Positions 29,358 to 44,049 of a DNA stretch of 64,000 nt are shown here, piece by piece (positions within the stretch are counted from its first letter, which is position 1; each line of letters begins with the position of its first letter). The notes under the pieces are model-generated. The model saw nothing but the letters and a program-made list of their open reading frames with translations. It made no database searches and was not told the origin of the DNA. This DNA comes from Candidatus Bipolaricaulis sibiricus (GTDB taxonomy: Bacteria; Bipolaricaulota; Bipolaricaulia; Bipolaricaulales; Bipolaricaulaceae). Made by a program: the position numbers and the translations under genes. The stretch covers positions 1,170,153-1,234,152 of the forward strand of contig CP034928.1 in NCBI GenBank assembly GCA_004102645.1. Direction: 5' to 3'.

Positions 29358-30494
29358 TGTTCGGTTTCACAGTAGTGTTGACAGGTGGAGGTACACGGAG
29401 GGGGTAGCAGGAGCGAGGGTCACCGTGGCAAGCTCACCAGGGATCCGACAAGAAACCTGGGAGGTGGCCCGATGACCCTCGAGGACAAGGTACACGGTTT
29501 TCGGCTCCATGCACTCCGCCGAGCGGAGGAGCTGGGCAACGTGAGCGCGGCGTGTCGAGAACTCGACATCTCGCGCACGGTGTTCTACCGGTGGAAGAAG
29601 CGCCTCCGGGCGTACGGGGCGGATGCTCTTCATCCCCGACGAACGTCCGCTCGTCCCGGACGACCACCGCTGCTGGGGCCCGTGGAGGAGCGTGCGATCG
29701 TAGCGACGGCGCTGGCGTGGCCGACGTGGGGACCGAACCGGGTGTCCTTGCAGCTTGCACGACAAGGGGTCCACGTCTCCCCAAGCACGGTGTGGCGGGC
29801 GTTGCGGCGGATGGGGCTGGGACGTCGTGAGGCGCGGCTCCTGGCCGTGGAGGGGCATGTAGCGAAGACCGCGGGGCTCCTCACCGAGCGCACGCGACGG
29901 AACCTCCGGCGGACCCGGCACGTAGCTGTCGACGAACCCGGGGAGCTGGTGTGCCTGGACACGTTCTTCATCGGCAAGCTCAAGGGCGTGGGGCAGATGT
30001 GGCAGATCACGGCGTGCGATGCGGCGAGCTCCTACGCCTGGGCGAAGGTGATCCCGGCCCGCAACGCGGTGGAGGCCGCACGGTTCCTGGCTGAGGTGCT
30101 CGTTCCCCAGTTCGCCAAGGCGGGGTGGAAGCTCCGCCGTGTGCTCACAGACCGGGGGAGCGAGTTCAAGGGCGAGTTCGACCAAGCCTGCCGGGACCTG
30201 AGGATCACCCACTCGCGGACGAAGCCTCGGCACGCCTGGACGAACGGGTTCGTGGAGCGACTACAGGGGACAATCCTCCACGAGCACTGGCGGGTGGCGT
30301 TCCGACGAAGGTACTTCACCCGCGCTCACCAACTGCAGCTGTCCCTTGCAGGGTTCCTGCGGTTCTACACGAGGAGCGACCGCACCACGGGTACCGGACC
30401 CAGGGACGCACTCCGGCCGAGGTGTTCTGGGGAGCGGCGGCTCACGCGTCAGACAAGGAGGCCTAACGTGTCAACAGCATTGCGGTACTGGACA
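29358..30494 (+). mobile_element. Insertion sequence, IS481/IS3-like DDE type, 1137 bp
   Basis: The ends are 28-bp imperfect inverted repeats. The left end reads TGTTCGGTTTCACAGTAGTG then TTGACAGG. The right end, inverted, reads TGTCCAGTACCGCAATGCTG then TTGACACG. They share TG at the tips and an inner TGTTGACA. An exact 8-bp direct repeat flanks it. One transposase gene fills the element. A second, decayed copy with matching ends lies at 34145-34996. The element sits immediately after the stop codon of the PNPOx-like gene, leaving that gene intact. Confidence 0.88.
29472..30466 (+). pseudogene. IS transposase (DDE integrase core), frameshifted near the end
   Basis: The ATG follows GGGAGGTGG. 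A helix-turn-helix (AACRELDISRTVFYRWKKRL, about 26-46) precedes the integrase core with catalytic Asp163 (CLDTFFIG), Asp227 (LTDRGSEF) and Glu262 (NGFVERLQ), a D-E spacing of 35 as in IS3/IS481 families. After FLRFY the frame should continue as NEERPHHGYRTQGRTPAEVF but moves to another frame because one base is missing around 30368-30370. Restored, the protein ends at 30466 and has about 331 residues. All catalytic residues lie before the shift, but loss of the C-terminus may inactivate it. Confidence 0.85.
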
Positions 30495-30502
30495 GCCTAG
30501 AA
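30495..30502. repeat. 8-bp target-site duplication, right copy
   Basis: An exact copy of GCCTAGAA at the right boundary of the insertion sequence. It contains the TAG stop of the PNPOx-like gene on the minus strand. Confidence 0.8.
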
Positions 30503-33130: not shown

Positions 33131-34069
33131 ATGCGCTGGGGATGGACGATCGGGGTGGCGCTTGTGGCAGTGGTTGGGGCCGGAACACCGGGGGACATCT
33201 ACCAATGGACGTACGACCAACTGGCCCTCGGCCCAGGGTGGACGGGTCACGTGTTCGCCAACCGCACGGGCGGAGACGTGCTGGGGTTGGAGCTGCTTTT
33301 CATGGACCCAGGACAGGCTCAGGTGCTGGTGGTGGGCGGGCGGTTGACGCGGGACGACGGAGGGGTTGCGGGAGTCCGATTCGCGGGCCGGATTGTCCCC
33401 GGAGGTGTGGTCACCGTGGCCCTGCCCACAGACACCATGCCTCATCAGGCTCTGTGGATCACCTCGGCAGGGCTGGTTCCGATTGACCTCGACCTCCCCA
33501 TCCCGCGGCTCAGCGTCGAGGAGATCTGGCCCGAGCTGATCATTTCCACCGCAGGAGAAGATGGACAGGACGACGGCACTGACGAGTTCTGGGGATCAAA
33601 GGAGCTATCCCCAGGATGGGACGAAGGCTCCGACGAGGGAGGCGAGCTCAGCAAGGGCGGCGGGGTGACCGTGCTCGGGTTCAGCTGGCCCCACGATCTC
33701 GACCCAGAGCTCCTGCGGGATTGGCAAGGCTACGTCTGGCTCGTCCGCCTCGACGGCCGGCGCTCGTTCAGCCCTCTGGGCGAGGAGATCATCTCCTGGA
33801 AGTGGTTCTGGGAGGATGGCCTCGGTCAGCAGGGCCCGGTCGTCGTCCGCGGGTTTGCCTCCCCCGGCGCCTACCGAGTGCGGCTCGTGGTCACCGACGG
33901 TGCGGGCCGGGAACAGATTCTGACCCGGTTTGTGGAGGCGCGGGACTGGGCGGCAATCGCAGAGGTCCTGGGGGACCACGGCACCACCACGCCCGTCGTC
34001 AAGGAACCGCCCCCAGGTATTCCGGAGGCCCAGGAGGAGCGGACGAAGGACCCAAAAACCCTGAACTGA
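33131..34069 (+). CDS. Exported protein of unknown function, acidic linker
   Basis: A 312-residue protein starting after AAGGAGG. Signal peptide about 1-18 (IGVALVAVVGAGTP). A beta-rich N-terminal part (GHVFANRTGGDVLGLELLFM, VAGVRFAGRIVPGGVVTVAL) is followed by a very acidic linker at about 140-175 (repeated ED/DEG residues) and a PKD-like C-terminal domain (ISWKWFWEDGLG, PGAYRVRLVVTDGAGRE). It shares the theme of PKD-type exported proteins with the gene at the left edge. Function unknown. It ends 75 nt before a decayed insertion sequence. Confidence 0.75.
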   Translation: MRWGWTIGVALVAVVGAGTPGDIYQWTYDQLALGPGWTGHVFANRTGGDVLGLELLFMDPGQAQVLVVGGRLTRDDGGVAGVRFAGRIVPGGVVTVALPTDTMPHQALWITSAGLVPIDLDLPIPRLSVEEIWPELIISTAGEDGQDDGTDEFWGSKELSPGWDEGSDEGGELSKGGGVTVLGFSWPHDLDPELLRDWQGYVWLVRLDGRRSFSPLGEEIISWKWFWEDGLGQQGPVVVRGFASPGAYRVRLVVTDGAGREQILTRFVEARDWAAIAEVLGDHGTTTPVVKEPPPGIPEAQEERTKDPKTLN

Positions 34070-34123
34070 AACGAGCTGCCGGGCAGGCGCGGGGAGTGAG
34101 CGGAGGGACATCGACCCTGTAGG

Positions 34124-34139
34124 GCCTCCCCGTGGAGGC
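34124..34139 (+). terminator. Hairpin after the exported protein
   Basis: GCCTCC pairs with GGAGGC around a CCGT loop between the exported-protein gene and the insertion-sequence relic. There is no T-run, so the assignment is weak. Confidence 0.35.
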
Positions 34140-34144
34140 TGGCC

Positions 34145-34996
34145 TGCCCAGTACTGCAACGGTGTTCACACGTCAGGCCTCCTGAGCTGACGCGTGAGCC
34201 GCGATGCCCCAGGACAGCTGCGCCGAGGGCGGCCCCCCTGGGTCTGGCACCCGGGGTGTGGCCGCTCCTCGTTGCCGGACGGCAGGAGCCCCGCAAGTCA
34301 CGTCTGGAGCTGGCGCGCGGGTGAAACGCCTCCGTCAGAACGCCCCCCGCCCGTGCTTGTGGAGGATCGTCCCCTCGGAGCCGCTCCACGAACCCGTTCG
34401 TCCGTGCGTGCCGCGGGTTCGTCAGCCAGTGGGTGATCCCGGGGTCCGATGCGCTTCGTCGAACCCGCCCTTGTACGGGCCTCCCCGATCCGTGAGCACA
34501 CGGCGGAGCTTCCACCCCGCCTGGGCGAACACAGGGACAAGGACATCGGTGAGGAGGCGTGCCGTTGCCTCGGCGTTGCGGCTGGGATCACCTTCGCCCA
34601 GGCGTAAGAGCTCCCTGCATCGCACGCCGTGATCTGCCCCACGCACGTGAGGTTGCCGATGCAGAACGTCTCCTGACACACCAGCTCCGCGAGTTCGTCG
34701 GCGGTAACATGCCGGGCCCGCCGGAGCGCCCCGCGGCGCCTGCCCCACCGTGCCCGGGAAGACGTGGATGCCCCGGCGGGCAAGCGGTACGGACACCGGG
34801 TTCGGTCCCCGCGTGGGCCCGTTCCTCCGCCCGGCGGAGCGGCATGGAGCCCAAACCGTGTACCTTGTCCTCGAGAGTCAGCGGGCCACCTCCCAGAGTT
34901 TCTTGTCGAATCCCTGGTGAGCCTGCCCCGCTGGACCTCGCCTCTGCTCCCCCCTCCCCACACCTCCACCTGTCAGCACTACTCTGAAACCGAACA
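34145..34996 (-). mobile_element. Decayed second copy of the insertion sequence, 852 bp
   Basis: The ends match the intact element: minus-strand TGTTCGGTTTCAGAGTAGTG at 34996 and, at the other boundary, plus-strand TGCCCAGTACTGCAACGGTG. The flanks GGCTGGCC (left) and GGCTAGGCC (right) look like a target duplication that has since lost or gained one A. It is about 285 bp shorter than the intact copy. It is in the opposite orientation to that copy. Confidence 0.85.
34170..34890 (-). pseudogene. Degenerate IS transposase
   Basis: Segments of the transposase at 29472 can be followed in three different frames: a helix-turn-helix remnant is largely deleted, then ITACDAGSSYAWAKVIP, KLRRVLTDRG, and NGFVERLRGDDPP near the end. 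Multiple frameshifts and deletions mean no functional protein. The first catalytic Asp region reads VCQETFCIG, so that Asp is also lost. Confidence 0.8.
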
Positions 34997-35031: not shown

Positions 35032-35061
35032 ATGGCTCGCCCCAGAGAGAGGATCCTGTGA
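35032..35061 (+). CDS. Possible nine-codon leader ORF coupled to the lyase gene
   Basis: An ATG 9 nt after a TACAAT box opens a frame encoding MARPRERIL that stops at TGA, overlapping the GTG start of the lyase as GTGA. It could be a short leader peptide that couples translation. Alternatively, it could be the true N-terminus of the lyase separated by an indel. The promoter box lies just outside the insertion-sequence relic. Confidence 0.3.
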   Translation: MARPRERIL

Positions 35062-36494
35062 CCTGGCACGAGGCGTACCGCCGGCATGTTCTGGACCCGT
35101 ACTACACGCACAGCGCGGCGTACCTAGGTGGCTACCTCCTCGATGCGATGATCGCCCACGTCCTGGCCGTCCGAAACCTACCCCTAGCCGCGGCCCCCGA
35201 GGCACAGGCTGACATCCGCCGCCTCCTCGGCGCGCTGGAGCGCCTGCGCACCACCCCTCTGGCGCACGCGCCTGCCACGCCGGATCTGTACACGACCTAC
35301 GTCCACGCGCTGGAGTGCGAGGCGGGACCGCGTGCGGCGAGCTACCTCCGCCTCGGCCTGAGCCGGAACGACCTCGACATGACCGCCTACCGGATGCACG
35401 CGCGGGAGCTCGTCCTCTCCCTGGCGAAGGACCTGGTCCGCCTCCGGACGGCCCTCCTCGCTCACGCCGGTCGCCACGTGTGCACGGTGTTCGTCGCCCA
35501 GACCCACCACCGACCCGCCCAGCCAACGACGCTCGCCCACTACCTGGCCGCGGTGGACGCGATGATCGAGCGCGACCTGAGGCGCTTGCTCCAGGCCTTG
35601 CGCCGGCTGAACGAGTGCCCGCTCGGCGCCGCCGCTCTGGGTGGAACAAGCTACGGGCTCGACCGAACCCTCACCGCCCGCCTCCTCGGATTCGGCCGCC
35701 CCGTGGCGAACACGCTCGACGCCGTGGCCGCCTCAGACTGGGAGCTTGAGCTGTCTGGAATCCTGTCCACAGTCGCGGTTGGGCTGTCGCGGCTCGTGGC
35801 TGATCTCATCTCCTGGGCCGCCGGCGACGCGTTTGTCTTGCCTCCCACGCTGTGCGAGGGATCGAGCATCATGCCCCACAAGCGGAATCCGGTGGCGCTG
35901 GAGCACGTCCGGGCGACGCTGGCGCGGGTACCAGCCCACGCCCAGGCCGCCGTGTTCTCCAGCCACAACATCCCGTTCTCGGACCACAACGACTTCGGAC
36001 CGGACGTACAGGATGCCCTGACCCGGAGCTTCGCCGAGCTGCGGGGTGCAGCCGAGCTGCTGACGGTCTGCCTGGAGGAGGGAACGTTCGACGCCCGGCA
36101 GCTGGCTCCGGAAGACGCGGACGCAGCGTCCACCGAGCTCGCTGACCATCTCACACGCTGCTATGCAGTCCCGTTTGGGGATGCGCACCGGCTGGTCGGC
36201 GCACTCGGGGATCGGCTACGATGTGGTGGCCGAGGCCTGGCCGAGGCGTCTCCCGACGACCTGACGGCCGTTGGGGGGCCACCCGTCCCTGCCGAGGAGA
36301 TCCGGGCGGCACTGAACGCGAGGGAATTCGTCCGCCGAAGGTGCGAACTGGGCGGACCGGAACAGGGGGTGATGGAGGACCACATCCGCAGAGCTACCCG
36401 GCGGCTCCACGCCTGGCAGGAGCGCCTGGGCCAGATCGAAGCGGCCCTCAGGCACTACCGAGATTCACTGCGGCATCACAAGGAGGCTCCATGA
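35058..36494 (+). CDS. Fumarase/argininosuccinate lyase-superfamily enzyme, ArgH-like
   Basis: A 478-residue lyase. GLSRNDLDMTAYRMHARELVL (N-terminal substrate region), FVAQTHHRPAQPTTLAHYL (catalytic His region) and the superfamily signature GSSIMPHKRNP at about 270 with the flexible Ser loop are all present. The superfamily cleaves C-N or C-O bonds to release fumarate (argininosuccinate, adenylosuccinate, aspartate). Its place at the head of an ABC-importer/amidohydrolase operon, not among arginine genes, argues for a catabolic substrate instead of arginine synthesis. GTG start with GAGAGGA upstream. Its stop overlaps the next gene (ATGA). Confidence 0.88.
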   Translation: MTWHEAYRRHVLDPYYTHSAAYLGGYLLDAMIAHVLAVRNLPLAAAPEAQADIRRLLGALERLRTTPLAHAPATPDLYTTYVHALECEAGPRAASYLRLGLSRNDLDMTAYRMHARELVLSLAKDLVRLRTALLAHAGRHVCTVFVAQTHHRPAQPTTLAHYLAAVDAMIERDLRRLLQALRRLNECPLGAAALGGTSYGLDRTLTARLLGFGRPVANTLDAVAASDWELELSGILSTVAVGLSRLVADLISWAAGDAFVLPPTLCEGSSIMPHKRNPVALEHVRATLARVPAHAQAAVFSSHNIPFSDHNDFGPDVQDALTRSFAELRGAAELLTVCLEEGTFDARQLAPEDADAASTELADHLTRCYAVPFGDAHRLVGALGDRLRCGGRGLAEASPDDLTAVGGPPVPAEEIRAALNAREFVRRRCELGGPEQGVMEDHIRRATRRLHAWQERLGQIEAALRHYRDSLRHHKEAP

Positions 36495-37762
36495 AGATGA
36501 GAACGTGGTTTGGTCTGTTGGCGTTGGCCTTTGGCCTCGTCGCGGTGACGGCGGGCGCCCAGATCGTCACGATCACGTACTGGCAGTACGAGTTCGCCAG
36601 CAAGGTGCAGATGATCGACGAGCTGATCGCCGAGTTCGAGGCGCAGAACCCGGGGATCAAGGTCCGCCATGAGACGTTCCCCTATGCCGTGTTTGCGGAG
36701 AAGGTGGCCACATCGGTACCAGCAGGCGTGGGACCGCACATCGTGAACCTCTACTACGGCTGGCTGCCGGCTTGGCAGCGAGCGGGGTACCTTCAGCCGC
36801 TTCCCGAGGATACTTTCCCCACGGACTCCATCGAGTCTGAGTTCGCGCCGCTTGTCCGGGCCGCCAAGATCGACGGCCGATACTGGGGGCTCCCCACCGC
36901 AGTCCGCACGCTGGCCCTGTTCTACAACGTCGACCTGTTCGAGGAGAACGGGATCAGCGGCCCGCCCGAGACGTGGGACGAGCTCATCTCCATCGCCCAG
37001 AAGCTCACCACCTACCGGGGAGGCAGGTTCGTGCGAGCCGGGTTTGGGATGGCACCCGATGGGCAGGACCACCATTTGGTGCGGGAGATCCTTCTCCGGC
37101 AGTTCGGCGGGGCTCCGTACAGCGACGACAGCCGCACCGTGACCTACAACACCCCGGAAGGGGAGGCGGCGCTCAAGTTCTACACCGACTTCCGGCTCGT
37201 CCACCAGATCGGAGAGCCCGACTTCCCGTTCCCAGGCGTGGCCGGTTACTACCGGGATGGCTTCATCGCTGGGCTGATCGGGATGATCGTTGACGGGTCG
37301 TTTGCCATCGGCGCGATCACGCGCAACGCCCCGCACCGGTGGGCAGTGGCGGAGTTGCCGCGCCTCACCCCGGACGGGGAGCGCCACAACTTCGCGTCGT
37401 TTTGGATGCACGGCCTGACCCCTCTCGCCCAGGGCGCGGAGCTGGAGGCGGCAGTGAGGTTCCTCCAGTTCATCACCTCCGAGCAGGCGATGAAGCGATG
37501 GGTGGCCTGGGTCGGTGAGCTGCCGGCGCGGTTGTCGCTCGTCGACAACCCCGAGCTGGTGGCAGACCCGATCCTCGGACCGTTCGTAGCGGCACTACCC
37601 TACTCGCACGCCACGTTCTTCGTGGATGAGGCCGCTCAACGCGCGGTGATGATCGACGCCGTGTTGCGGGTGATCCGCGACGGGATGGACCCCGCGGAGT
37701 CGCTGCGCCGGGCGGCGACCGAGGAACAGGCGATCCTCGACCGGTTCTGGCAAGCGAGGTAA
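36491..37762 (+). CDS. ABC transporter substrate-binding protein, family 1 (sugar type)
   Basis: A 423-residue exported solute-binding protein with AAGGAGG before the ATG. Signal peptide 1-22 (GLLALAFGLVAVTAGAQ). TITYWQYEFASKVQMIDELIAEFEAQNPGIKV is the classical start of the carbohydrate-type extracellular binding proteins, followed by GWLPAWQRAGYLQPLP and LPTAVRTLALFYNVDLFEENG. No lipobox cysteine, so it is probably free in the periplasm. Ligands are usually sugars or glycerol phosphates, but family members also bind other polar compounds. Its ATG overlaps the lyase stop. Confidence 0.93.
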   Translation: MKMRTWFGLLALAFGLVAVTAGAQIVTITYWQYEFASKVQMIDELIAEFEAQNPGIKVRHETFPYAVFAEKVATSVPAGVGPHIVNLYYGWLPAWQRAGYLQPLPEDTFPTDSIESEFAPLVRAAKIDGRYWGLPTAVRTLALFYNVDLFEENGISGPPETWDELISIAQKLTTYRGGRFVRAGFGMAPDGQDHHLVREILLRQFGGAPYSDDSRTVTYNTPEGEAALKFYTDFRLVHQIGEPDFPFPGVAGYYRDGFIAGLIGMIVDGSFAIGAITRNAPHRWAVAELPRLTPDGERHNFASFWMHGLTPLAQGAELEAAVRFLQFITSEQAMKRWVAWVGELPARLSLVDNPELVADPILGPFVAALPYSHATFFVDEAAQRAVMIDAVLRVIRDGMDPAESLRRAATEEQAILDRFWQAR

Positions 37763-37836
37763 GTGAACTCGGGACCGGGGCCGGCCAGTGGCCGGCTCCG
37801 GTCTGCCCCTGACCACGGTCAAGGAGAGGAGAGCGC

Positions 37837-38769
37837 GTGGGGACTTCCCGTCACAGGTCGCCGGTCGTCGGCCTGACCCTCCGCCGGCGGCGGATCCTCT
37901 GGGCGTACGCGTTCCTCGCCGTTCCGCTTCTCTTCTTCGTCGCCATCCGCATCTGGCCGATGCTCCAGGCATTCCAACTCTCCGTGACGCAATGGCACGT
38001 GGATCCCGCGCAGCGGGTGTTCGTGGGCCTTCACCACTTCCAGCGGATGTGGAGCGATGCGAAGTTCCTGCAAGCGCTTCGCAACACGGCCCTCTACGCG
38101 GCGATCGGCGTGCCGGCCCAGGTGTTCCTCGGGCTGGGGATCGCGCTCCTCCTGAACAACATCCGTCGCCTGCGGGGTCTGTTCCGGGCGATCTACTTCG
38201 CGCCCTATGTCACCCCGGCGGTGGCGGTGGCGTGGGCGTGGAGCTACATGCTGTCCCCCCACCTCGGCGTGGTGAACACCCTCCTCGGGTACGTGGGGAT
38301 CCCGCCTCAGCCGTTTCTCACCTCGCCCGCCCAGGCCCTGCCCACGGTGGCCGCGGTGGTGGTGTGGCAGTTCGTGGGTTTCCACGTGGTGATCTTCCTC
38401 GTTGCCCTGAACAGCATTCCGCGCGAGATCTACGAAGCAGCGCGGGTGGATGGGGCTGCGGGGTGGTCCCTGTTTCGCCGGATCACCTTCCCTCTCCTCA
38501 ACCCGAGCCTCGTTCTGTCCGTGATCATGGCCACCGCGTCCCCGTCGATCGGGATCCTCCAGCTGTTCACCCAGGTGATGAACCTGCGCATGTACGACCC
38601 CGGGGGGCCGCTCGGGAGCACGAGCACCGTCGTCCTGTATATGTATCAGATGGCGTTCCGGCGGTTCGACTTCGGGTACGCGGCGGCGATCATCGTCGTC
38701 CTGTTCGCGATCATCCTCACGACAAGCCTGCTCCAGCTGCGCGTGTTGCGCCGGAGGTTCGAGTACTGA
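37837..38769 (+). CDS. ABC transporter permease, MalF/UgpA-like
   Basis: A 310-residue inner-membrane permease with six helices. WAYAFLAVPLLFFVAIRIWPML is the first helix and QALRNTALYAAIGVPAQVFLG opens the permease core. The EAA motif is EIYEAARVDGAAGWSLFRRITFPLL, which docks the ATPase. GTG start after a purine-rich GGAGAGGAG. Its stop overlaps the next permease by one base (TGATG). No ATP-binding gene lies in this operon. Confidence 0.93.
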   Translation: MGTSRHRSPVVGLTLRRRRILWAYAFLAVPLLFFVAIRIWPMLQAFQLSVTQWHVDPAQRVFVGLHHFQRMWSDAKFLQALRNTALYAAIGVPAQVFLGLGIALLLNNIRRLRGLFRAIYFAPYVTPAVAVAWAWSYMLSPHLGVVNTLLGYVGIPPQPFLTSPAQALPTVAAVVVWQFVGFHVVIFLVALNSIPREIYEAARVDGAAGWSLFRRITFPLLNPSLVLSVIMATASPSIGILQLFTQVMNLRMYDPGGPLGSTSTVVLYMYQMAFRRFDFGYAAAIIVVLFAIILTTSLLQLRVLRRRFEY

Positions 38770-39590
38770 TGCGCCACCGCGTGTTGCCGGTCCGGATCCT
38801 GAGCTACCTCGTTCTCACCGCCGGGGCGGCGATCATGATCTTCCCGTTCGTCTGGATGCTTCTCACCTCGCTGAAGCCCCTGCCGGAGATCTACTCCCTC
38901 TCGTGGCTGCCGCGTCAGCCGACGCTGCAGAACTACGTGACGATTCTCTTCCGGTACCAGTTCGGCCGGTGGTTTCTCAACAGCCTGTTCGTCGGCACCG
39001 CCACGACCCTGTCCATGGTGGTGTTCTGCTCGCTGACGGGATACACGCTCACCAAGCTCGACTTCCCGGGGAAGGGATTCGTGTTCGTCCTTATCCTCGC
39101 CACGCTGTTCGTCCCCACCGAGATGCTCGTGCTCCCGTGGTACGCCGCGTCCGTCCGGTTTGGGTGGGTGGACACGTACTGGGGGATCATGTTCCCAGGG
39201 ATGATCCACGCGTTCGGGGTGTTCCTCATGCGCCAGTTTTTCCAGAGCCTGCCCAACGATCTCCTCGATGCAGCCCGCGTGGACGGGCTCTCCGAGCTAG
39301 GGGTGTTCTGGCGTGTCGCCCTGCCCCTGATGAGGTCGCCCCTCGCTGCCCTGGCCATCCTCGCGTTCTTGGGCAACTGGAACGCGTTCATCTGGCCCCT
39401 CATCGTTACCCACCGCTCCGAGGTGTTCACCTTGCCAGTGGGGCTGGCGATGTTCTCCGGGGAGGCCGGTGCCCAATGGAACCTGATCACCGCCGGGGCG
39501 ACCCTGTCGGTGTTCCCGGTTCTTCTCGTGTTCGCCATCTTTCAGCGCCACATCATCGAGAGCGTCGCCTCGTCGGGGGTGAAGGGATGA
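38769..39590 (+). CDS. ABC transporter permease, MalG/UgpE-like
   Basis: A 273-residue permease pairing with the previous one. FPFVWMLLTSLKPLPEIY is the typical first helix and loop. The EAA motif is DLLDAARVDGLSELGVFWRVALPLM, and NWNAFIWPLIVT is a conserved late segment. It starts within the TGATG overlap and ends in an ATGA overlap with the amidohydrolase, so the whole segment is translationally chained. The ATPase must come from elsewhere, as with shared MsmK-type subunits. Confidence 0.93.
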   Translation: MRHRVLPVRILSYLVLTAGAAIMIFPFVWMLLTSLKPLPEIYSLSWLPRQPTLQNYVTILFRYQFGRWFLNSLFVGTATTLSMVVFCSLTGYTLTKLDFPGKGFVFVLILATLFVPTEMLVLPWYAASVRFGWVDTYWGIMFPGMIHAFGVFLMRQFFQSLPNDLLDAARVDGLSELGVFWRVALPLMRSPLAALAILAFLGNWNAFIWPLIVTHRSEVFTLPVGLAMFSGEAGAQWNLITAGATLSVFPVLLVFAIFQRHIIESVASSGVKG

Positions 39591-40540
39591 GCGAGTCCCT
39601 CGGGTTGCCGATCTTCGACGTCCACTGCCACCTTCCCGCACCGGGAAGGTTGGCGTGGGGCGCATGGGGAGAGGCGTTCGCCCGTCGTTACGGGGAGGCC
39701 AAGCTCACCACGTGGATCGAGCGCAACCGCCAGGCCCAGCACCGGTCGCGCGACACCCTTGGCTTCCCGGTCCCCGAGGTTCCGCAGCCGTCGCCAGACG
39801 AGAGCGCACGGCGCTACGCCGCAGAGATCGAGCGCTACGGCCTCCGGGGGATCTGCCTTGTCACCGGCGGCGGCAACGATGTCCTTGCCGCCGCCATCCG
39901 CCCTCACCCCAAGCTGCTGGGGTTCGCCCACCACGACCCGTTCTCCCCCGGCGCCGCCGACGAACTGGTCCGCGCGGTGCGCGACCTGCGCTTGGTGGGG
40001 TACAAGGTGATCGCCCCGGCACTCCCCGGCCCTCTCGCCGACTCCACACTGGACCCGGTGTGGGAAACCTGTTCGTACCTCGGTATCCCCGTCCTGGTCC
40101 ACTTCGGACCGCTGGGAGGTGGGTCGGGGGTCGCCGCGGGACAGAACATCAGCCCCCTCGCCCTCCACGACGTGGCGAAGGGATTCCCCGACACCCCGTT
40201 CATCGTCCCCCACTTCGGGACCGGCTACCTGCGGGAGCTCCTCCATCTGATGTGGGCGTGCGACAACGTGTTCGTGGACACGTCAGGGAGCAACGGATGG
40301 CGGCGCTTCCTGTGGCCGCAGCCGGAGCTGGCCGATCTGTTCCGCCTGTTTCACCGACAGTTCGGAGCCGAGCGGATTCTGTTCGGAACCGACAGCTCGT
40401 ACTTCCCCCGTGGATGGGCCTCCCGCTACGCTGAAGAACAACTCCGCGCTGCCGCAGCAGCCGGAATCCAGGAACGCGACGTGGAGAAGATCTTCGCTAC
40501 GAATGCCCCTGCGTTGCTCCGCGTCGAGACCCCGGAATGA
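39587..40540 (+). CDS. Amidohydrolase_2-type metal-dependent hydrolase
   Basis: A 317-residue TIM-barrel enzyme. FDVHCHLPA near residue 10 is the HxH metal motif on strand 1, IPVLVHFGPLGGG and FIVPHFGTGYLRELLHLM carry the later histidines, and FGTDSSYFPRG carries the strand-8 Asp. The family includes decarboxylases, lactonases and amidases. Coming last in the lyase-importer operon, it should act on the imported compound or on the lyase product. Substrate unknown. Confidence 0.88.
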   Translation: MSESLGLPIFDVHCHLPAPGRLAWGAWGEAFARRYGEAKLTTWIERNRQAQHRSRDTLGFPVPEVPQPSPDESARRYAAEIERYGLRGICLVTGGGNDVLAAAIRPHPKLLGFAHHDPFSPGAADELVRAVRDLRLVGYKVIAPALPGPLADSTLDPVWETCSYLGIPVLVHFGPLGGGSGVAAGQNISPLALHDVAKGFPDTPFIVPHFGTGYLRELLHLMWACDNVFVDTSGSNGWRRFLWPQPELADLFRLFHRQFGAERILFGTDSSYFPRGWASRYAEEQLRAAAAAGIQERDVEKIFATNAPALLRVETPE

Positions 40541-42004: not shown

Positions 42005-42931
42005 CTACAGCTTGCTTAGCATCTGAATTTCCAGGGGTTCTCCCCTCTCCGGAGCGCGGACGAGGTTCAGCGCACCCGACGGGCAGTGTGCCACGCACAC
42101 TCCGCATCCCATGCAGGCTTCGAAATCCACGATCGGATTCCCGTTCGTGGACGCGACCGCACCAAACGGGCACCGGGCCGCACACGCTCCGCAGCCCCGG
42201 CACAGCGCGGCGTCGAGGACGGCCACGTAGCCGGAGGAAGCGAGCATCGGCGTCCCGTGCTTCCAGGCCTGCATCGCCCCGCAGCAGCACGGGCAGCAGT
42301 TGCAGATCGCGTAGAACCGGCTGAGCATCGCGTCCTTGAAGAACGCGTGGTGGACGTGGCCGCGGTCCCGCTCCGCCCGCAGAATCGCCACCGCCTCGTC
42401 CGGGGTGATCCACCGGGCGCGCTGCGGGTGTTGGTCGGCGACGAAGCTCGCGAACGGCTCCCCGACGATGAGGCAGACGTCGAGGGGAAGACACGGCTCG
42501 TCGCGGGCGACCCGGCACGGGCACTCCAGGGCGACGATCCGGTCCGGGCCGCGGAGGACGATGTCGCGCGCGGTCGCGTAGGGGATCACCTTCTCCAGGT
42601 TCCGCAGGTCCACATCCACACGAAGGGTGACGAGCTGCTCGGCCGCCGGGGTGGGGAGAACCTTGCCATGGTACGTGTCCGCGAGGCGCCGCCCAGCATC
42701 CGACCCGCGCTCCGCGCGAAGGAACAGGCGCCCCACACAGCGGTGGACGGCCCGCAGGGGGCGGGGGAGGGTCTCCGGTCGCGTCGCACCACGAATGTAG
42801 AGGTACGGCCACCGCGCGTAGACGTACCCGTGGAGAAAGTCGCGCAGCCGGTAGCCGGGCAAGCGCAGCCCTTCGCGGGCGAACGCGCGCGTCGCGTAAC
42901 GAACAGGCCATCCCAGACGTCGTCGGTCCAT
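42005..42931 (-). CDS. Cysteine-rich ferredoxin-type iron-sulfur protein
   Basis: A 308-residue protein with GGGGGGAAG before the ATG. The C-terminus has two ferredoxin motifs, CRGCGACAARC (244-254) and CMGCGVCVAHC (273-283), binding two [4Fe-4S] clusters. Ahead of them are CPC (137-139), Cys147, Cys153 and the striking run CNCCPCCC (210-217), enough for at least one more metal site. No signal peptide or transmembrane helix. It probably passes electrons in an anaerobic redox reaction. The N-terminal 130 residues match nothing I know. It is divergent from the cyclase gene. Confidence 0.88.
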   Translation of the reverse strand: MDRRRLGWPVRYATRAFAREGLRLPGYRLRDFLHGYVYARWPYLYIRGATRPETLPRPLRAVHRCVGRLFLRAERGSDAGRRLADTYHGKVLPTPAAEQLVTLRVDVDLRNLEKVIPYATARDIVLRGPDRIVALECPCRVARDEPCLPLDVCLIVGEPFASFVADQHPQRARWITPDEAVAILRAERDRGHVHHAFFKDAMLSRFYAICNCCPCCCGAMQAWKHGTPMLASSGYVAVLDAALCRGCGACAARCPFGAVASTNGNPIVDFEACMGCGVCVAHCPSGALNLVRAPERGEPLEIQMLSKL

Positions 42932-43029
42932 CTTCCCCCCCAGTCGCACTCCAGTGTAGATCGCACGGCGCCACCGTGCTACTCGGCGGCGTCGGGCGTC
43001 TGCACTCCCTGGACCGTGGCTGCTCGCCT

Positions 43030-44049
43030 GTGCACACTCTGACCGTGAAGATCGGCGGTCTCGACGACGCAGCGGATCTGTCGGCTGCCCCGCAGATCGT
43101 GTCACCGACCGCCGAACGTGGACCGGGCCCTGCCGCCCGCGGCCGGGCCATCCTGTTCGCCGACATCCGCGGGTTCACCTCGTACGCCCGCGCGCGGGGA
43201 GACGCGCAGGCCTACCGCCTCGCCAAGGCGTTCACCTCTATCGCCGAGCGCTGCGTGGCGGGGAACCGCGGCCGGGTCGTAAAGACGCTCGGCGACGGGG
43301 TCATGGCGGCCTTCGCCGACGCGTACAACAGCGTGGTGTGCGCGAAAGAGATCCAGGAACAGGTCGCCCGCCACAACGCCTCCCATCCCGCCGACCCCCT
43401 GGCGAGCGGGATCGGGATCGCGTGGGGCACGCCGATCGAGGAGGACGACGACCTGTTCGGGTCGGTCGTCAACCTCGCCCAGCGCCTGGCCGACCGCGCG
43501 CGGGGTGGGCAGATCCTCGTCTCCCCCCCCGTGGTGGAGAGGACCGCCCAGGCCGGGATTCGCTACCTCGACCTCGGGACGCACGACCTCAAGGGCCTCG
43601 GCCCCCAGCGGATCTACGAGCTCGTGTGGCGAGACGAGGTCGCCCACATCGCCACGAAGGACGGCCGTCTCAACCTCATCCTCACCCGCGACGCCCTGGT
43701 CGTGGAGCTCGGCAAGGCAGTTCAAGAGCAGGTGCAGCTCGTCCGGGAGCTACTGTCCGAACGGGCTGGGCGCAGGCGCGGCATCCGCGGGTTCCTCCTC
43801 AACGCGACGATCGGGATCCTCGAGCGCCGCGTCCCCCAGATCGTGGATCGAGCTTTGTTCCAGCGCGGGTTCGGGCTCGAGCACCCCCTCGCCGAGGTGA
43901 CGGCCTCGTTCCGCCGAAACACGCTCACGGTGAGGATCCGCGGGCACCGCGGGATCCAACTGGGGCCGAAGGACGTGGACCCCGAGCTCGCTGCCGAGTT
44001 CGTGGCCAAGCTCGACCAGCTGAAGCGCGAAGTTCTCACCCATTCCTAG
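43030..44049 (+). CDS. Class III adenylate/guanylate cyclase with unknown C-terminal domain
   Basis: About 339 residues. The cyclase domain (about 35-215) has the metal-binding FADIRGFTSY, TLGDGVMAAF, and the transition-state segment DLFGSVVNLAQRLADRA with the conserved Asn and Arg. These residues indicate an active homodimeric nucleotide cyclase; ATP versus GTP is not certain. No membrane segment is present. The C-terminal 120 residues (about 225-339: LVVELGKAVQEQVQLVRELL onward) are not recognised. Two GTG starts, 43030 and 43045, are possible and neither has a clear ribosome binding site. Confidence 0.87.
   Translation: MHTLTVKIGGLDDAADLSAAPQIVSPTAERGPGPAARGRAILFADIRGFTSYARARGDAQAYRLAKAFTSIAERCVAGNRGRVVKTLGDGVMAAFADAYNSVVCAKEIQEQVARHNASHPADPLASGIGIAWGTPIEEDDDLFGSVVNLAQRLADRARGGQILVSPPVVERTAQAGIRYLDLGTHDLKGLGPQRIYELVWRDEVAHIATKDGRLNLILTRDALVVELGKAVQEQVQLVRELLSERAGRRRGIRGFLLNATIGILERRVPQIVDRALFQRGFGLEHPLAEVTASFRRNTLTVRIRGHRGIQLGPKDVDPELAAEFVAKLDQLKREVLTHS

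Follow-up and report, generated by a model that had tools for sequence, protein, structure and literature searches.

The operon

The window, a stretch of 64,000 nucleotides from the complete 1.70-Mb genome of the Bipolaricaulota bacterium Candidatus Bipolaricaulis sibiricus (G000), contains five intact genes on the same strand (+) at positions 35058-40540. They encode, in order, an ArgH-like lyase, the binding protein and two permeases of a sugar-type ATP-binding cassette (ABC) importer, and an amidohydrolase, as described in the original prediction. The lyase gene (35058..36494, GTG start, 478 amino acids) belongs to PF00206 and includes ASL_C2 (Pfam, 133 bits); its product is a putative fumarate-releasing enzyme of a glucosaminyl-malate type. 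The next gene encodes a CUT1-type extracellular solute-binding protein (36491..37762, SBP_bac_1/8 in Pfam), whose PDB relatives are sugar-binding proteins and whose N-terminal stretch, read by eye, resembles a signal peptide. The two sugar permease genes, both with profile matches to BPD_transp_1, are of the MalF/UgpA type (37837..38769, GTG start) and the MalG/UgpE type (38769..39590). The last gene (39587..40540) encodes a TIM-barrel metal hydrolase of the Amidohydro_2 family (PF04909, 120 bits in Pfam), a candidate amide hydrolase that may take the place of a PIG-L enzyme.

The genes overlap at three of the four junctions, and not at four of five as had been counted: by ATGA (4 nt) between lyase and binding protein, by TGATG (1 nt) between the permeases and by ATGA between the second permease and the amidohydrolase. 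The exception is the gap of 74 nt already reported between the binding protein and the first permease. It holds a strong RNA hairpin (37772..37804, +), and the 91-nt stretch with this hairpin folds at -46.6 kcal/mol (z = -2.65); hairpins are common where a binding-protein gene is followed by permease genes. All five genes are found in the same order in two other genomes of the genus, with identities of 95-97% (G008) and 70-90% (G013). In another phylum the set of genes is present at 41-62% identity. The grouping is therefore not due to chance.

No ATPase gene lies inside the window cassette, in line with the description of the importer as lacking one. The only ATPase with an OB_MalK domain in the genome scores 476 bits to UgpC, over the cut-off, and is encoded far from the cassette among genes seemingly unrelated to sugar use. 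This lone UgpC/MalK-type gene would, as expected, supply the shared ATPase of MsmK type that the original prediction had asked for. The SBP_bac_1 protein, the two MalF/MalG-type permeases and the unlinked MalK/UgpC-type ATPase together make up the set of a CUT1 sugar importer, with the same single distant ATPase as in MalEFG or Ugp importers that share MsmK or UgpC. The window operon differs from those in having a lyase and an amidohydrolase where they have glycosidases.

Separation of the lyase from ArgH

The superfamily (PF00206) fold and catalytic motifs (TH and the SSxMPxKxN loop) are present in the window lyase. The score to the curated argH equivalog model TIGR00838 is 238.5 bits, under the cut-off of 279.5 bits. 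The genome contains two PF00206 genes, the cassette lyase and one read from its sequence as PurB, and no second argH was found in this search. Among the neighbouring genes none for arginine was seen, as had been noted, and argG (PF00764) is absent from the window genome and from G008 and G013; the same search finds it in 14 of 14 control genomes. Because the window genome is without argG, there would be no argininosuccinate to cleave. The situation is different in the eight Deinococcota tested (Trueperaceae and Thermaceae), all of which have a genuine argH (587-647 bits) and argG in addition to a lyase of the cassette clade (226-283 bits). Where Deinococcota carry the cassette, the genuine argH adjoins argG.

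In the lyase tree (66 rows) the cassette lyases form a clade of 23 rows (support 100/100), which the alphaproteobacterial cassette lyases join at 94/88, while 31 rows with genuine ArgH and relatives form a separate group (99/98). A second argH is indeed missing from the genome, but the lyase does not group with ArgH, and the original interpretation is supported. The window lyase nests within a subclade (100/99) made up mostly of Trueperaceae sequences, and this position suggests that it was probably acquired from Deinococcota.

The active-site alignment separates two sides of the substrate pocket. The residues on the fumarate side (SRND, TH and SSIMPxKxNP) are retained in the cassette lyases and shared with ArgH. 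The N-terminal NAS..D pair, EDVH, the Q after SRND, NPD and YNKDxQEDK of ArgH are lacking. The N-terminal S and D, the Q, YNKDxQEDK and NPD, which are missing from all cassette lyases in the alignment and found in nearly all genuine ArgH rows, are residues that we take to be arginine-contacting. Most cassette lyases have HN[I/T]PFxDxND and NPVxxEH (NPVxLEH) in place of these arginine-side signatures. The claim that the window lyase keeps a GSSIMPHKRNP loop holds for its GSSIMP part; the loop reads CEGSSIMPHKRNPVALEH and ends in NPV where genuine ArgH mostly have NPD. The predicted structure (predicted local distance difference test score, pLDDT, 87.4) matches ethylenediamine disuccinate (EDDS) lyase and ArgH best, with EDDS lyase 6g3d on top. 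It is well supported that the window lyase is not ArgH and is part of a conserved catabolic cassette.

One alphaproteobacterial cassette lyase (L115) scores 336 bits to NF005218 (PRK06705) and 307 bits to argH. The PRK06705 "argininosuccinate lyase" model presumably describes a lyase of the Bacillus cereus group, bacteria that make bacillithiol.

The cassette in other bacteria

Relatives were found by a scan of genome contigs and by plasmid searches. The neighbourhood survey proposed earlier shows that the combination of lyase and binding protein recurs, in Bipolaricaulota, Trueperaceae, Deinococcus and Alphaproteobacteria and thus in at least three phyla. In the first three groups the lyase is accompanied by this binding protein and its permeases, and binding-protein orthologues in other cassettes are 46-96% identical. 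The full order in Trueperaceae is ROK regulator, amidohydrolase, lyase, binding protein, two permeases and PfkB kinase. On Deinococcus plasmids it is ROK, lyase, a large PIG-L protein (in three cases), binding protein, permeases, a small PIG-L protein and PfkB kinase; the large PIG-L protein of D. ficus has the domains NEW3 and CBM9 as well as what looks like a signal peptide. PIG-L adjoins the lyase in four of seven Deinococcus loci. In Alphaproteobacteria PIG-L and ROK genes run divergently to a series that encodes binding protein, permeases, lyase, UgpC and a kinase of the PfkB or ROK type, so that these cassettes encode their own UgpC. The lyase was found in 11 of 385 sampled alphaproteobacterial genomes, with PIG-L adjoining in 8 of the 11 and the binding protein in 8; in three of the 11 loci a different importer stands beside lyase and PIG-L (SBP_bac_5 confirmed in one). 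A further Bipolaricaulota genome, G022, has the order ROK, binding protein, permeases, amidohydrolase and an AglA-like glycosidase of family GH4, and no lyase was found in that genome.

Genes for amino-sugar use recur around the lyase. The glucosamine-6-phosphate deaminase NagB is encoded near the cassette in Bipolaricaulota JdFR-48, Loktanella and Paroceanicella, where in the last case the gene overlaps the kinase gene within the operon. The unrelated NagB-II (SIS) is encoded beside the Roseomonas lyase, and the G334 locus has a SIS gene and a NagK-type kinase. NagB or NagB-II type genes are thus found at five lyase loci, and ROK regulators, the CUT1 importer, PfkB or ROK kinases and PIG-L adjoin the lyase in relatives. 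The gene content suggests an amino-sugar conjugate, a substrate class that the original prediction had not named, as probable, and it points to a catabolic pathway of importer, hydrolase and fumarate-releasing lyase of the kind that had been proposed. Upstream of the JdFR-48 cassette, three NagB-family genes in about 12 kb (G033:C4 4117-16512) mark an amino-sugar region.

Some relatives are found outside complete cassettes. Meiothermus and Calidithermus (L062-L071) have a related lyase without importer genes, which in several Meiothermus adjoins a gene of the RelA/SpoT type and a DUF92 gene. A Thermus oshimai plasmid carries a binding protein and permeases as orphans, and Deinococcus AJ005 an orphan binding protein; neither gave a further clue to an enzyme.

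In the amidohydrolase, H13, H15, K140, H172, H209 and D269 are invariant across 16 relatives in the alignment, and the Amidohydro_2 ligand set (HxH, K/E, H, H and D) is complete in the window protein. The model (pLDDT 84.6) gave matches at superfamily level only in the fold search. No cassette surveyed has both amidohydrolase and PIG-L, and the plasmid search gave no match to the amidohydrolase. The pattern is that of two enzymes standing in for each other, but the two groups also belong to different taxa. The sole PIG-L gene of the window genome (G000:C1:638652-640274; L153, L157) and a divergent ROK gene are 274 nt apart, and the pair is also present in G008 and G013. The PIG-L protein is apparently membrane-anchored, and a link to the cassette is unproven.

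A possible pathway for glucosamine-malate conjugates

The preferred reading, with about an even chance, is that the cassette imports and dismantles an N-acylated glucosamine glycoside of a malate-like C4 diacid, with bacillithiol or a glucosamine- or N-acetylglucosamine-malate core as candidates. The superfamily of the lyase yields fumarate from malate- or aspartate-type substrates, and a glucosamine conjugate yielding fumarate would therefore be glucosamine-malate. Bacillithiol is Cys-GlcN-alpha-O-L-malate. It also carries an amide that an enzyme of the PIG-L type would cleave, releasing cysteine. We infer bacillithiol as the specific substrate only provisionally. Slightly less probable than the general reading is a bacillithiol-degrading pathway that comprises an ArgH-derived glucosaminyl-malate lyase, a PIG-L or Amidohydro_2 amidase, the importer and kinase and deaminase genes in at least three phyla.

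The binding protein and the two permeases, powered by the distant UgpC/MalK ATPase, would import the conjugate, as their families suggest. Amidohydro_2 in the window, or PIG-L in Deinococcus and Alphaproteobacteria, would strip the acyl or cysteinyl group off the amino sugar. The lyase would deprotonate the malyl group at C3 and expel the sugar, so that fumarate and free glucosamine are formed; this reaction is proposed because the fumarate-side residues are retained and because of the gene context. In relatives a kinase of the PfkB, ROK or BadF type and glucosamine-6-phosphate deaminase would then feed the sugar to glycolysis. If the GH4 glycosidase of G022 does stand in for the lyase, the broken bond would be glycosidic.

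PIG-L/LmbE enzymes known up to a review of 2014 work on N-acyl-glucosamine cores (PMC4101496). The pathway would share with bacillithiol metabolism (BshA/B/C and Bca) both PIG-L enzymes acting on N-acyl-glucosamine and an L-malate aglycone. The known bacillithiol enzymes make or recycle glucosamine-malate, and we know of none described as cutting the sugar-malate bond. Literature searches found nothing on bacillithiol breakdown of this kind or on this cluster. The S-(2-succino) lyase pathway follows a similar logic, in which an importer, amide hydrolysis and a fumarate-releasing class I lyase salvage a succinyl adduct; it has the importer YxeMNO, an acetyltransferase and the deacetylase YxeP, with N-acetyl-S-(2-succino)cysteine as substrate (PMC9706529). 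Identity with that system was rejected, as importer and gene set are different and sugar genes are lacking there (PMC9706529). Two other substrates were rejected on chemical grounds. GlcNAc-asparagine carries the sugar on the side-chain amide, from which elimination to fumarate is impossible, and the inositol aglycone of mycothiol cannot yield fumarate.

Several observations weigh against a glucosamine-malate substrate. The characterised ArgH-like lyases known to us expel nitrogen, and fumarase is the sole precedent we know for expulsion of a sugar oxygen. The nearest structures to the amidohydrolase are decarboxylases, lactonases and hydratases, and we know of no Amidohydro_2 enzyme that hydrolyses N-acyl-glucosamine. 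The small Deinococcus PIG-L scores 145 bits to MshB and 81 and 64 bits to BshB. The window cassette is without a sugar kinase, and NagB (PF01182) is absent from the window genome, where the SIS-type NagB-II was not searched for; the missing NagB weakens the glucosamine step there. A cysteine dioxygenase beside one cassette and the bacilliredoxin gene BrxC near another speak for a thiol, but each is a single case. The Deinococcota tested also encode BshC, and because of this an unregulated glucosamine-malate lyase would consume the precursor that these bacteria make themselves. They would need to regulate the lyase, or would use it in turnover of their own thiol.

Alternative readings

The lyase may instead be a C-N lyase for an N-substituted aspartate, similar to EDDS or iminodisuccinate lyase, with for example a sugar-aspartate Amadori product as substrate. 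Its products would be fumarate plus an amino compound, with the kinase phosphorylating the freed amino sugar. C-N cleavage is the default in ArgH, EDDS lyase is both the top structural match and the second-best distinct PDB enzyme by family profile, the cassette kinases also weakly match fructoselysine 6-kinase, and ArgH-like lyases of other plasmids adjoin asparaginase, MmgE/PrpD and SIS genes. EDDS lyase of Chelativorans (6g3d-6g3i) is likewise an ArgH-like catabolic enzyme and shares the C-terminal pattern in the profile alignment, but it falls outside the cassette clade (as a long partial row), differs in the 280s-loop and HNIPF regions and has, to our knowledge, no sugar genes around it. 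The Cereibacter and Cupriavidus lyases are also outside the clade, and PIG-L, the NagB-type deaminases and GH4 in place of the missing lyase would be left unexplained, which makes this reading rather unlikely. A cluster of fructose-asparagine or iminodisuccinate type does exist on Cereibacter plasmids, but was set aside for its position outside the clade. On one such plasmid (L105, 6391-10366) an ArgH-like lyase, MmgE/PrpD, a SIS protein and asparaginase resemble a pathway for iminodisuccinate or an asparagine conjugate.

The hydrolase could also hydrate a carboxylated intermediate or act on it as a lactonase, in the manner of LigJ and GalB with 4-oxalomesaconate, and the substrate would then be acidic or derived from an aromatic compound. 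Both families supply 4-oxalomesaconate hydratases in the PDB, Amidohydro_2 with LigJ (6dwv) and PIG-L with GalB (5cgz). The cassette PIG-L is, however, far nearer to MshB, a sugar deacetylase (6e-25), than to 5cgz (2.5e-4), and the ROK, CUT1, sugar kinase and glucosamine-6-phosphate deaminase genes indicate an amino sugar; this alternative is improbable. A divergent but genuine argininosuccinate lyase in arginine synthesis would agree with the family assignment and with the few relatives of the window lyase that barely exceed the argH cut-off (280-307 bits). It is ruled out, as nearly as such a case can be, by the score under the cut-off in the window, the missing argG, the separate clade, the lost arginine-side residues, the fixed linkage to a sugar importer and the true argH with argG that coexists in Deinococcota.

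Genes flanking the operon

By-eye reading of the open reading frame (ORF) list indicates an integrase-type transposase ORF at 29385-30500 (+) and an apparently broken copy of it at about 33871-34969 (-), just upstream of the lyase. The two are a possible trace of the arrival of the operon. Further downstream, also by eye, a protein with an apparent adenylate/guanylate cyclase domain is encoded at 42976-44049 and adjoins a divergent ferredoxin-like gene (42005-43105).

Implications

Databases would label the lead gene of this operon as an arginine-making enzyme. With the present assignment, many "argininosuccinate lyase" annotations in Alphaproteobacteria and Deinococcota would be corrected, on plasmids as well as on chromosomes, and genome-scale models would no longer take such genes as a sign of arginine synthesis. 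If the proposed pathway is true, elimination of a glycoside with release of fumarate would be a novel means of breaking a sugar-acid bond, and the cassette would be the first breakdown route known to us for a major bacterial thiol. An uncultured phylum would gain a specific and testable food source.

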